Below are positions 22,346 through 26,720 of a stretch of DNA of 33,174 nt, in pieces. This DNA is from Gammaproteobacteria bacterium (GTDB lineage: Bacteria; Pseudomonadota; Gammaproteobacteria; GCA-001735895). The stretch's first letter is position 1. Every line of letters begins with the position of its first letter. Location: assembly GCA_024225395.1 (NCBI GenBank), contig JAAEMR010000074.1, positions 1-33,174 on the forward strand, in the 5' to 3' direction. The translations under genes and the position numbers were made by a program. Below the pieces are notes generated by a model. It did no database searches. It was not told where the DNA came from and saw only the letters and a list, made by a program, of their open reading frames with translations.

Positions 22346-22780
22346 ATGTCACTTACCCGCATCACTCAGCCAGACACAGAACTGTCACATATTCAATTGC
22401 CCCTATTCGGTTGCCGGGTGCGAGCAGGCTTTCCCTCGCCTGCCGATGATTTTATTGATAAGTCACTGGATTTAAATGAGTTCCTGATAAAAAAACCGGC
22501 CGCCACTTTTTTTGCCTGGGCAGAAGGTGATTCACTGCGTGATATCGGTATCACCGAGGGTGACCTGTTAATTATTGACCGCTCAGTGGAACGCACCCAG
22601 GGTGCCATCGTCGTCGCGGCCATCGATGGTGAACTCACCTGTAAAATTCTCGATATCCGGCGCATGCAATTATTATCAGCCAATGAAAATTACCCACCCA
22701 TCAATGTTTCCGGTAAAGAAGACCTGCTAATCGAAGGTGTCGTCACTCACAGCATCAAAAAGCACTTACCGAAAAGATGA
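22346..22780 (+). CDS. umuD: UmuD-like translesion polymerase accessory protein (self-cleaving, S24 family)
   Basis: The 144-residue product matches UmuD. The self-cleavage site is Ala27-Gly28 followed by FPSPADD; E. coli UmuD cuts Cys-Gly, while LexA uses Ala-Gly. The catalytic serine is Ser63 in EGDSLRDIGI and the lysine is Lys100 in DGELTCKIL. The dyad is therefore complete, and RecA-stimulated cleavage to an active UmuD' form is expected. It overlaps umuC by ATGA, so both subunits of Pol V are translationally coupled. The usual SOS operator is not recognisable upstream, which leaves the mode of induction open. Confidence 0.93.
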   Translation: MSLTRITQPDTELSHIQLPLFGCRVRAGFPSPADDFIDKSLDLNEFLIKKPAATFFAWAEGDSLRDIGITEGDLLIIDRSVERTQGAIVVAAIDGELTCKILDIRRMQLLSANENYPPINVSGKEDLLIEGVVTHSIKKHLPKR

Positions 22781-24027
22781 TAGCACTGGTTGACTGCAAC
22801 TCCTGTTACGCCTCCTGCGAGCAGGTTTTCCGCCCCGATTTACGTGATAAACCCGTCATCGTATTAAGTAATAATGATGGTTGCATTATTGCGCGCAGCA
22901 AAGAGGCAAAGAAACTCGGGGTTCCAGATTTACAGCCGTTCTTCAAAATTGAACAACAATTAAAAAAGCACCGGGTGGTGGTGTTTTCAGCTAACTTTCG
23001 GCTATACGGTGATATCTCCAACCAGGTCATGACCACTCTGCGTGATTTTTCTCCACGGGTGGAGCAATACAGTATCGATGAAATGTTTCTGGACTTCAGC
23101 GGTATGGACCTGGACTTGAATGACTATGGTTCATTAATTAAAGAATCCCTGTGGCAAAACGTGCGTATGCCGGTGGGTGTGGGCATTGCACCCACCAAAA
23201 CCCTGTCGAAACTAGCCAACCATGCCGCCAAAAAAATCAAAAGTTCAGGGGTAGCCGTGCTGGATAGCCCGGTGAAATGGCAATGGTTACAAAAGCGTCT
23301 GCCAATCATCAAAATATGGGGTGTTGGAAAACGCCTCAGCAAACGTTTGAATGCACTTGGTATCCATTCAGTCTATCAACTGGCACAGGCTGATCCAGGC
23401 TTCATCCGCAAACAAACCAGCATCAATATCGAACGTACCATCCGCGAGCTTAATGGTGAAGCCTGTATCAGCCTGGATGAACAGCCGGCACCCAAAAAAG
23501 AAATCTTTGTCACCCGTTCTTTTGGCAAAAAAACGGGTAGCAAGGAAGAGTTACTGCGCCATATCAGTCGTTATGCCGCTGCGGCAGCAGAAAAATTACG
23601 CAGCCAGAACAGTTTTTGCAGCAGCCTGTATCTGTTTGCTTTCACCTCAGAGTTCAAACCCGGTTTTTACAGCAACAGTAAAGTGATCAAACTGCCCTAC
23701 CCGACCAGTAACAGCACGATCATAATCAATCATGCCAAACAGGGCATGTCACAGCTTTATCAAGCGGGCAGTCTGTTTGCAAAATGCGGTATCGGTTTAC
23801 TCGATATCCGGGATCGAAATTTTCATCAATATGACTTATTCACTCCAGGTCAGCAACCCGCTACCGATGAACTCATGTGCATGATTGATAACATCAATCG
23901 ACGCTATGGTCGGGACTCCATGACCTTCGGGGCAGAGGGGTTAACCGGTAAATGGACCATGCATCAAAACCGCTTATCCCCCTCTTACACATCATCCTGG
24001 CTGGACTTACCCAGAGTAAACTGCTGA
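22777..24027 (+). CDS. umuC: DNA polymerase V catalytic subunit UmuC
   Basis: A Y-family polymerase that copies past DNA lesions. The 416 residues match UmuC length (about 422). It begins MIALVDCNSCYASCEQVFRP, with the metal-binding Asp in the first strand. The palm motif is YSIDEMFLDFSG (residues near 105-115), and VGIGIAPTKTLSKLANHAAKK is present in its VGVGIAPTKTL form. A helix-hairpin-helix region (WGVGKRLSKRLNALGI) follows, and QYDLF near residue 350 matches the beta-clamp binding motif (QLNLF in E. coli). The gene overlaps umuD by 4 nt. No truncation or lost catalytic residue is seen, so the Pol V system looks functional. Confidence 0.95.
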   Translation: MIALVDCNSCYASCEQVFRPDLRDKPVIVLSNNDGCIIARSKEAKKLGVPDLQPFFKIEQQLKKHRVVVFSANFRLYGDISNQVMTTLRDFSPRVEQYSIDEMFLDFSGMDLDLNDYGSLIKESLWQNVRMPVGVGIAPTKTLSKLANHAAKKIKSSGVAVLDSPVKWQWLQKRLPIIKIWGVGKRLSKRLNALGIHSVYQLAQADPGFIRKQTSINIERTIRELNGEACISLDEQPAPKKEIFVTRSFGKKTGSKEELLRHISRYAAAAAEKLRSQNSFCSSLYLFAFTSEFKPGFYSNSKVIKLPYPTSNSTIIINHAKQGMSQLYQAGSLFAKCGIGLLDIRDRNFHQYDLFTPGQQPATDELMCMIDNINRRYGRDSMTFGAEGLTGKWTMHQNRLSPSYTSSWLDLPRVNC

Positions 24028-24074: not shown

Positions 24075-24557
24075 TTAACGGTCTGTTGGGCGCCATCTAT
24101 TTAAAGTCTGGCGTTGTTCTTCGGTAAGAATTGAATCCACTTTGCTTCTCATCTCATCACGATGAGCCTGCCTGGCAATTTGCTGACCATTTTTCCAATC
24201 CTGTTGAGTTTGCTGTAATACTTCCAGCTTTTGGTGTTGTTCAGGGGTCAGGTCATTCAATCGATAGATTCCACGCATGGAACCGCCTTTCATACCTGCC
24301 ATCTGACGTTGTCCACGCTTACCCTGCTTCCAGGATCCGCCTTTCATGCCTGCCATCTGACGTTGTCCACGCTTACCCTGCTTCCAGTGCATGGGAGGTT
24401 GACCGTACATGTTTCCCTGCATTTGATTATATTGTCCTCTTTGCATGCCAGGGCCACGTTGGTCACAATTACCATAACCATTAAAGGCGTAAACACTTCC
24501 TGTAGCGACAACCAGTAAGGCAGTTCCAAAAAGGGTATATTTTGATTTTTTGTTCAT
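24075..24557 (-). CDS. Spy/CpxP-like periplasmic stress protein with internal repeat
   Basis: A 160-residue protein with a signal peptide (MNKKSKYTLFGTALLVVATGSVYA/F). The mature N-terminal half is rich in Gly, Gln, Met and Arg and carries two tandem copies of an 18-residue unit beginning WKQGKRGQRQM. The C-terminal half has the Spy/CpxP features LTPEQHQKLEVL and LTEEQRQTLNRW (LTxxQ motifs) separated by a charged helix. ATG 24557 is chosen over ATG 24563 because GGAG then lies 7 nt away instead of 1-2 nt. CpxP-type proteins act as periplasmic chaperones and restrain CpxA. Being divergent from cpxRA, as cpxP is in E. coli, supports that role. The Met/Gln-rich part could also bind metal, which is speculative. 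Confidence 0.82.
   Translation of the reverse strand: MNKKSKYTLFGTALLVVATGSVYAFNGYGNCDQRGPGMQRGQYNQMQGNMYGQPPMHWKQGKRGQRQMAGMKGGSWKQGKRGQRQMAGMKGGSMRGIYRLNDLTPEQHQKLEVLQQTQQDWKNGQQIARQAHRDEMRSKVDSILTEEQRQTLNRWRPTDR
24279..24386 (-). repeat. 54-bp in-frame tandem duplication inside the spy-like gene
   Basis: The copies at 24279-24332 and 24333-24386 differ at only two positions by eye (24282 versus 24336, 24294 versus 24348), and both changes are silent or conservative in the 18-residue unit. The near identity implies a recent duplication or ongoing copy-number variation. The length is a multiple of three, so the frame is kept. Confidence 0.9.
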
Positions 24558-24623
24558 GATCATTCTCCAGTTTTTGTATTAGTTACTGTTTATTTCAGTG
24601 ACCAAACTATAACGCCATGCTAT

Positions 24624-24678
24624 GTAAAGCAGGGTCAACTCAGGCAAAGCTTTGCAAAGAAGTGCAAAGAAGTGCTTT
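24624..24678. promoter_or_regulatory. Phased operator array between the spy-like gene and cpxR (CpxR-type)
   Basis: Five half-sites start exactly every 10 bp: GTAAA at 24624, GTCAA at 24634, and GCAAA at 24644, 24654 and 24664. The next position, 24674, is GCTTT. The known CpxR box is GTAAA-N5-GTAAA, so the first pair fits with one mismatch and the others are a GCAAA variant with the same geometry. Two inverse CTTTGC copies (24650-24655, 24684-24689) add dyad character. On the minus strand a TATAGT -10 (24610-24605) lies just beyond the array with no good -35, as in activator-dependent promoters. A weak rightward promoter for cpxR may be TTTGCA (24685) with CAGAAT (24708). The array would therefore serve both the spy-like gene and cpxRA autoregulation. 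Confidence 0.6.
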
Positions 24679-24735
24679 AAGTCCTTTGCAGCTTCAGTTT
24701 TTACGTCCAGAATAGAGTTACTGGAGATCAATTGA

Positions 24736-25419
24736 ATGCATATTTTACTGGTAGATGATGATGTAGCACTGTGTGAATTACTCAGTGAGTACCTGGAAAT
24801 GGAAGGTTTCCAGGTGTCTATGCTTCACGATGGAAACCAGGCTCTGCAACTGATTAACAGCGCTCAGCAATCATGGGATGCTATTTTACTGGATGTAATG
24901 TTACCCGGGTTGAATGGCTTTGATTTGTTGAAAGCCATACGCCTGCAGAGTTCCATCCCTGTTTTAATGTTAACTGCACGCGGTGAAGATACCGATACAG
25001 TGCTGGGTCTGGAACTGGGTGCCGATGAATATGTGGCCAAGCCGGTTAGCCCCAGAGTTCTAGTTGCCCGCCTCAGAGCATTGATACGTCGAGCCTCCAG
25101 TGAACAGAAAAGTAACGTCATCAAGATAGGTGACCTGAACCTTGATAAGCAGGCCCGGCTATTAACAGTAGCCGGTGAGACTATTGAGTTAACAGGCGCT
25201 GAATTCAACTTGCTTAACCAGTTAATTGACCATGCAGGGGAAGTGGTCAGTCGAGAACAACTTGCCAAAGAAGGACTGGGTCGAGCTTTGCAAGCCTATG
25301 ATCGACGTATCGAAACACACATGACACAAATTCGGCGCAAACTCGGACTACGGGCAGATGGGACTGAGCGCATCAAAACCGTACGCGGTGCCGGCTATCA
25401 ATACGTGATTTCCCGATGA
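24736..25419 (+). CDS. cpxR: CpxR-type response regulator (OmpR family)
   Basis: The 227-residue product has a receiver domain (ILLVDDDVALCELL, phosphoacceptor Asp53 in LLDVMLPG, LMLTARGEDTDTVLGLELGADEYVAKP) and an OmpR-type winged helix (IELTGAEFNLLNQLIDHAGEVVSREQLAKEGLG ending in TVRGAGYQYV). The LGLELGADEY-x-x-KP segment and the C-terminal RRIETHMTQIRRKLG are closer to CpxR than to OmpR or PhoB. It senses envelope stress through its partner kinase, whose start overlaps its stop by ATGA. GGAG lies 9 nt before the ATG. The upstream phased array is the probable autoregulatory site. Confidence 0.88.
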   Translation: MHILLVDDDVALCELLSEYLEMEGFQVSMLHDGNQALQLINSAQQSWDAILLDVMLPGLNGFDLLKAIRLQSSIPVLMLTARGEDTDTVLGLELGADEYVAKPVSPRVLVARLRALIRRASSEQKSNVIKIGDLNLDKQARLLTVAGETIELTGAEFNLLNQLIDHAGEVVSREQLAKEGLGRALQAYDRRIETHMTQIRRKLGLRADGTERIKTVRGAGYQYVISR

Positions 25420-26720
25420 GTTTATTCCTGCGTATTTTTCTGTCTTTCTGGTTAGCAGCTATTTTGCTCGCAGCCAGTTTTTTTCTGTTGGGAAAATTTT
25501 CCGGGGCTGAAGCCATTGAGCGCCACGAAGCCATACTAAAAGCACAGGCTGATATCGTAGCAACCCTGTGGCTCAACAATGGCAAACGCGCCACCATGCA
25601 CTGGTTAGCGGCATTACCATTACTCGAACGTCCTCAACTGGTCAATCAGCAGGGTAAAAGCAGAATGCGGGGGCCCAGAATGAAAAGAAACCTGCCATTA
25701 AAACCTGTACAGCCCGGCATACACCGTAATAAGAATGGACATGTCATGATCGTTGTCACATTGCCTGAAGTGACTCCGGCACTATTCCTGGTCAGACAGT
25801 TAGGCCCACAACAACTGCATCGCATGCCTATGATATATCTATTACCACTAGCGCTGATTATTATCAGCCTGGTTAGTTATTTTCTGGCATCGGTGCTGAC
25901 TAAACGCATTCGGCAATTAAGGTCTACAGTCCAGGTCATAGCCGATGGAGACCTTAGTGCTCGTGTGACCCTCAAAGGCACAGATGAAGTTAGCGCACTG
26001 GCCACCGACTTTAATCGTATGGCAGATCGCATCAACGAAATGCTAACGAGTCAGCGACAACTTGTCAGTGATGTATCACACGAATTACGCTCTCCACTTG
26101 CTCGCTTACGAATTGCACTGGAGCTGGCAGAAAGAGCCGATAACCCTGTCACTTCTCTTCAGCGAATCGAAAAAGAGGCTGATGAACTGGAAAGCCTGGT
26201 AACAGGGTTATTATCACTGGCTCGCATAGAATCCGGACAGTCACAACTGGAAAAGCAAACACTCTCTTTGTGCGAGCTATTGAAATTAATCGTAGAAGAT
26301 GCCAATTTTGAGGGCCAGGCCATGCAACGACAGGTTGAACTCATGCACTGTGACAGCATCACACTCTTCGCAGATCCGGTCATGCTACGTTCGGCCATTG
26401 AAAACGTGATAAGAAATGCACTGCATTACACACCACCAGATAGTCAGGTTCTAGTTAGCGTTTTGCAAACTCAAAACTCGGTAAACATTAGCGTTGATGA
26501 CCAGGGAGAAGGAGTACCACCACAGGCTTTAGTCAGGTTATTTGAACCTTTTGCACGGGTAGCAGAAGCACGCGACCGGCTCAGTGGTGGCTACGGACTC
26601 GGACTGGCCATTACCGGAAAAGTCATTCAAGCTCACAATGGAAAAGTAACCGCTGAAAATAGAAAAGAAGGCGGTTTAAGAGTTACGCTAAGTTTACCTC
26701 TCAATCCACCTGAGCTTTAA
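25416..26720 (+). CDS. cpxA: CpxA-type sensor histidine kinase
   Basis: A 434-residue membrane kinase, close to E. coli CpxA (457). TM1 lies at about residues 4-24. A short periplasmic sensor spans roughly 30-130 and contains Arg/Lys-rich stretches (SRMRGPRMKRNLPL). TM2 is near 140-163, followed by a HAMP linker (KRIRQLRSTVQVIADGDLSARV), the phospho-accepting His222 in VSDVSHELRSPLARL, and an ATPase domain with NVIRNALHYTPP (N box), DDQGEGVPP (G1) and GGYGLGLAI (G2). The FARVAEARDRLSGG sequence before G2 is CpxA-like. The sensor is shorter than the E. coli one, so its ligand or its interaction with the Spy-like protein may differ. Convergent with tas. Confidence 0.87.
   Translation: MSLFLRIFLSFWLAAILLAASFFLLGKFSGAEAIERHEAILKAQADIVATLWLNNGKRATMHWLAALPLLERPQLVNQQGKSRMRGPRMKRNLPLKPVQPGIHRNKNGHVMIVVTLPEVTPALFLVRQLGPQQLHRMPMIYLLPLALIIISLVSYFLASVLTKRIRQLRSTVQVIADGDLSARVTLKGTDEVSALATDFNRMADRINEMLTSQRQLVSDVSHELRSPLARLRIALELAERADNPVTSLQRIEKEADELESLVTGLLSLARIESGQSQLEKQTLSLCELLKLIVEDANFEGQAMQRQVELMHCDSITLFADPVMLRSAIENVIRNALHYTPPDSQVLVSVLQTQNSVNISVDDQGEGVPPQALVRLFEPFARVAEARDRLSGGYGLGLAITGKVIQAHNGKVTAENRKEGGLRVTLSLPLNPPEL

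Follow-up and report, generated by a model that had tools for sequence, protein, structure and literature searches.

A conserved, probable CpxR-type operator array with GCAAA half-sites between an LTxxQ gene and cpxRA

Five half-site words, GTAAA, GTCAA, GCAAA, GCAAA and GCAAA, begin at positions 24624, 24634, 24644, 24654 and 24664 of the window (the whole stretch of 33,174 nucleotides that was analysed), in the gap between a gene for an LTxxQ protein and a divergent cpxRA operon. They most likely form a real, conserved CpxR-type operator array, and both the array and the control region shared by the two transcription units appear to be of a known kind. The explanation we favour, and consider probable, is that the array serves as the operator of the adjacent CpxR-like regulator, with half-sites 4 and 5 as its core, half-sites 1-3 as an extension towards the LTxxQ gene, autoregulation of cpxRA, and a specificity for GCAAA that is linked to Thr194 of the regulator.

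Genes flanking the array

The minus-strand gene at 24075-24563 encodes a 162-aa protein with the traits of the Spy/CpxP type, namely small size, two LTxxQ motifs (LTPEQ and LTEEQ) and predicted export, the last judged by eye from a hydrophobic N-terminus; its score against Pfam LTXXQ (19.2 bits, E = 0.0021) lies below the 24.3-bit gathering cut-off. Among the relatives' proteins, two LTxxQ motifs occur in L010, L011, L013, L015 and L019 and one in L014. On the plus strand, a 227-aa OmpR/PhoB-family response regulator (24736-25419), with a receiver and an OmpR-type winged-helix domain and 53% identity to Escherichia coli CpxR, forms an operon with a 434-aa CpxA-like sensor histidine kinase (25416-26720) that overlaps it. 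The best-scoring model for the regulator was NCBIfam PRK10955 (CpxR), at 223.1 bits and thus short of the cut-off of 341, and it is filed as CpxR-like; for the kinase it was PRK09470 (CpxA), at 279.4 against a cut-off of 486, with a match confined to residues 114-430. The LTxxQ gene also carries a 54-bp tandem duplication (24279-24387; 2.0 copies, 96%), which yields a repeated basic Met/Gly-rich segment absent from the protein of relative G001. Directly before this gene lie two adjacent plus-strand open reading frames of 144 and 416 aa (22346-24027), a UmuD/UmuC-type pair by eye, and a UmuC-like coding stretch is also found there in G001.

Sequence and conservation of the array

The sequence-only reading had reported five words at 10-bp steps, and the exact coordinates, shuffles and conservation all confirm them. 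They lie on the plus strand as half-site 1 (GTAAA, 24624-24628), half-site 2 (GTCAA, 24634-24638) and half-sites 3, 4 and 5 (GCAAA; 24644-24648, 24654-24658 and 24664-24668). For a five-unit 10-bp GYMAA pattern with at most three mismatches, the array was the sole match in the window, in three overlapping registers; whole-window shuffles averaged 0.01 matches, and none of 100 reached 3. A scan of all 4.45 Mb of the genome with the three-unit pattern gave four matches, three of them overlapping registers of the array and one at another place, and its reversed control gave three. Because the GYMAA definition is post hoc, having been derived from the array itself, such pattern counts are weak when taken alone, and conservation is the stronger test. 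Beyond the five units, the sixth 10-bp step (GCTTT at 24674) does not fall on a half-site, and GCCAT at 24614 would count at most as one more, degenerate unit. The further claim that all units share one face of the DNA stands as far as the 10-bp steps go but not as exact facing, as these steps drift by about 17 degrees each against the 10.5 bp of B-DNA, which makes the placement approximate. No Rfam family matched the window at its gathering score.

The divergent arrangement and the array were present in six relatives (G001, G004, G006, G007, G011 and G023, with the G007 region spread over two contigs), and alignment of the cpxR upstream regions bears out a conserved 10-bp register. G001, G004 and G006 keep it throughout; G007, G011 and G023 lack exactly one 10-bp unit, so that phase is preserved and four units stay in register. 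The last two units, TGCAAAGAARTGCAAAG (24653-24669), are nearly invariant and kept in all six relatives, whereas half-sites 1-3 are far less conserved: half-site 1 degenerates to TCAAA, CTAAA, ATCAA or ATAGA; half-site 2 is GTCAA in every relative except G004, where it is GTGAG; and half-site 3 is GTAAA in G001, ATAAA in G006 and the unit absent from G007, G011 and G023. Set against a CpxR box, the spacing is exact, half-site 1 is GTAAA, the conserved core is GCAAA-N5-GCAAA, and relatives carry GTAAA at the homologous position and spacing. This conservation supports the earlier proposal of a CpxR-type operator with a GCAAA variant half-site, probably common to the divergent LTxxQ gene and cpxRA. 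When the search was run on the order to which the window belongs, it yielded the same seven loci.

Phased half-sites upstream of cpxR across the class

In a first set of 76 cpxR upstream regions, made up of the relatives' loci from a contig search and a class-wide sample, half-site words stood 10 bp apart in 87 pairs (shuffles: 2.8), and additional peaks lay at 11, 20-22, 30-31, 41-42 and 52 bp, almost exclusively on the cpxR strand. The array at L102 reads GTCAA-GCAAA-GTAAA-GTAAA-GTAAA with steps of 10, 11, 10 and 10 bp; L025 (Geobacteraceae) has the canonical GTAAAGAAATGTAAAG at the equivalent place, aligning with GCAAAGAAGTGCAAAG of the window; and the E. coli cpxP-cpxR gap holds four phased units, GCAAA-GTCAG-GTAAA-GTAAA. 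Among the 144 arrays of an enlarged set, 55 had at least four units and 53 had only two detected units. The longest chains upstream of cpxR comprised seven (L151) and six (L147) half-sites; their steps are a mixture of 10 and 11 bp, and their outer units are weaker. In addition to the direct array, L025 and L028 (Geobacteraceae/Pelovirga) carry a second, inverted GTAAA-type box, TTTACATTTCTTTAC, closer to the regulator gene.

The cpxR loci of Gammaproteobacteria thus commonly carry phased half-sites in arrays of up to four to six. The usual description of a CpxR site is a two-half-site box; these data suggest that ordered arrays reaching five or six half-sites are a common state of the cpxR-LTxxQ gap, E. 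coli included. The sequence-only reading had taken more than two half-sites to be unusual and GCAAA to be specific to this lineage, and neither view is supported: E. coli has its four units, single GCAAA units occur there and elsewhere, and the GCAAA-GCAAA core marks a wider clade with Thr at regulator helix position 194. Its suggestion that chaperone and two-component system are coupled from one region describes what is already the E. coli cpxP/cpxRA arrangement; with arrays common across the class and four units in E. coli, neither the array nor the coupling is peculiar to this lineage. A literature search on multi-unit CpxR arrays or residue/half-site covariation returned nothing in the open-access set, which is not proof that they are undescribed.

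Half-site letters and regulator residue 194

The codon for Thr194 (25315-25317, plus strand) lies in the recognition helix DRRIETHMTQIRRK, and the residue aligns with Met199 of E. coli CpxR, Val197 of PhoB and a valine of RstA. In the first set, GCAAA-GCAAA cores were mostly found with a recognition helix reading ETH or DTH, and GTAAA-GTAAA cores with one reading D[MVL]H. Because the words of the first-pass half-site matrix had been pre-selected as GYMAR, the residue test was rerun with bases 2 and 3 flat on an enlarged set of 217 loci, of which 144 gave an array with those bases unscored. Among these arrays, bases 2-3 at Thr-type loci were CA in 43%, TC in 27%, CC in 9% and TA in 4%, compared with TA in 63%, CA in 16% and TC in 7% at Met/Val/Leu/Ile-type loci. 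No GTA half-site was present in 52 of 58 arrays with Thr194 versus 5 of 86 with Met, Val, Leu or Ile (Fisher p = 2e-26, a value that is not to be read as coming from independent loci, because the loci are related), and both members of the best pair were TA at 0 of 47 Thr-type loci versus 51 of 76 others. The half-site classes varied by test (TA in both members of the best pair, an array free of GTA, or C in more than half) and all pointed in the same direction; the unreduced set contains a few duplicates, such as L019 and L096. After reduction to 117 sequences below 85% identity, the best of 227 predictors of half-site type (mutual information minus null 0.519; next 0.293) was column 194, which had already been noticed before the ranking.

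We caution that shared ancestry strongly confounds the states of residue 194 and of the half-sites. Trees from which the recognition helix was left out show only three or four changes of residue 194, two of them on well-supported branches; pairs on these branches mostly changed in the same direction, with significance out of reach (sign test p = 0.5), and one more family sampled for independent switches yielded few new loci and was left out of the statistics. There are exceptions on both sides, in that the window and G001 have Thr194 yet retain GTAAA at one or two units, and GCAAA pairs occur with Met or Val in L110 and L299. Structural work places the equivalent residue at the DNA, as Val203 of RstA contacts T6, with Arg207 contacting G5 (PMC4117788), and Val197 of PhoB contacts a half-site base (PMC3264566); RstA T6 would be base 2 of a GTACA-like half-site by our own reading of the numbering, which is not stated in PMC4117788.

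We infer that Thr194 causes the base preference. A broader reading, to which we give even chances, is a recognition-code switch in the CpxR family, in which a change from Met, Val or Leu to Thr at the helix position facing base 2 turned a GTAAA operator into a GCAAA or GTCAA one, more than once and with the whole array rewritten in step. The GCAAA core paired with Thr194 is a new variant, for which a specificity switch is plausible. Through the covariation, the way in which a widespread response-regulator family reads DNA can be tested with one residue and one base; it is also a warning that GTAAA matrices from enterobacteria will miss CpxR sites in Thr-type lineages.

Alternative explanations

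The rival with most in its favour holds that the real CpxR box comprises half-sites 4 and 5 only, half-sites 1-3 being decayed repeats or half-site-like promoter sequence. The near-invariance of TGCAAAGAARTGCAAAG alone, the drift of half-sites 1 and 3, the unit missing from three relatives and the 53 arrays with just two detected units are as it would predict; however, those relatives lack precisely one unit of 10 bp, GTCAA keeps a fixed distance from the TATAGT element described below, and the strong class-wide enrichment of pair distances of 20-22, 30-31, 41-42 and 52 bp, which a two-unit site would not lead one to expect, argues against it, and we consider it unlikely.

Far less probable is that the words are repeats for another regulator, or phased A-rich words that curve the DNA instead of binding CpxR: curved DNA would likewise show AAA words at 10-bp phase, but these words are directional and strand-specific, keep G at position 1, and differ at bases 2 and 3 according to the recognition helix of the adjacent CpxR. 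Hardly credible, finally, is a functionless tandem repeat arisen by chance or slippage. Tandem Repeats Finder does report TGCAAAGAAG x 2.3 at 24653-24675, and slippage may account for the gain and loss of 10-bp units, but not for conservation, and the core is conserved in other families whose flanks have otherwise diverged.

Predicted promoters and proposed regulation

Both promoter assignments were read from the gap sequence. The predicted -10 of the LTxxQ gene, TATAGT (24606-24611, minus strand), lies within the conserved AACTATAA, 12 bp from half-site 1 and at a constant distance from half-site 2 in those relatives' sequences that were read; inspection of the gap sequence revealed no recognizable -35 ahead of it. 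By analogy with PhoB-type promoters, the 12-bp distance and the lack of a recognizable -35 suggest direct activation here. For cpxR, a plausible promoter is TTTGCA-N17-CAGAAT, with a predicted -35 (TTTGCA, 24685-24690, plus strand) conserved in six of seven aligned rows, a predicted -10 (CAGAAT, 24708-24713, plus strand) within CAGAATA, which is invariant in all seven, and half-site 5 centred near -54. The predicted -35 contains an inverted GCAAA (TTTGC, 24685-24689), conserved in most relatives, which may represent a sixth half-site, in inverted orientation, through which CpxR could compete with polymerase.

Under the favoured operator reading, phosphorylated CpxR dimers would bind head-to-tail on the 10-bp direct repeats, possibly cooperatively, with half-sites 4 and 5 as the high-affinity core dimer site. 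Through half-sites 1-3 the array would reach in the direction of the LTxxQ gene; the last bound protomers would thereby occupy the place of the -35, 12 bp from the TATAGT element, and would activate this gene as at PhoB-type promoters. Autoregulation of cpxRA would rest on the same array, which ends about 54 bp before the putative cpxR start. The use of GCAAA for GTAAA would reflect altered regulator specificity, with Thr194 in place of the Met, Val or Leu that faces the second base of the half-site in relatives.

Searches of this genome with the core matrix and with three- and four-unit patterns found no convincing second CpxR target, and no second clear array emerged from the four-unit scan. 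With the core matrix, one intergenic site came within a single mismatch, TGCAAAGAAATGGAAAG (C153:20534-20550 of G000; L124 1501-1517), which precedes another OmpR-type regulator gene and may be a second target or chance; two-mismatch sites lay mostly inside open frames, in numbers modestly above the reversed control (169 versus 128). Another site, in the neighbourhood of a dsbA gene, was not counted because it is located past the 3' end of that gene.

Comparison with known systems

The closest parallel is E. coli cpxP-cpxRA, which likewise has a divergent LTxxQ gene and cpxRA with same-strand half-sites phased at 10-bp steps; the window differs in its five units, in a GCAAA-GCAAA rather than GTAAA-GTAAA core, and in Thr194 instead of Met199. 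Longer half-site arrays exist at other OmpR-family promoters. In E. coli, cpxP is under CpxR control, and the classical CpxR box is GTAAA-N5-6-GTAAA (PMC9600279), given as GTAAA-N4-8-GTAAA in another report (PMC5063474). Like that box, the window has 5-bp direct half-sites about 10 bp apart, but its two core half-sites have C for T as their second base, and the array extends from two units to five. The RstA box, the pho box and the PmrA and KdpE sites are also head-to-tail direct half-sites, each taken by one DNA-binding domain, and the papers on them describe two-half-site elements (PMC4117788, PMC3264566, PMC4660055), compared with five half-sites in the window. In Pseudomonas aeruginosa, according to PMC5063474, the LTXXQ gene cpxP adjoins cpxR and has a CpxR site on its promoter, and CpxR activates it; that site is of the GTAAA type, unlike the GCAAA core of the window.
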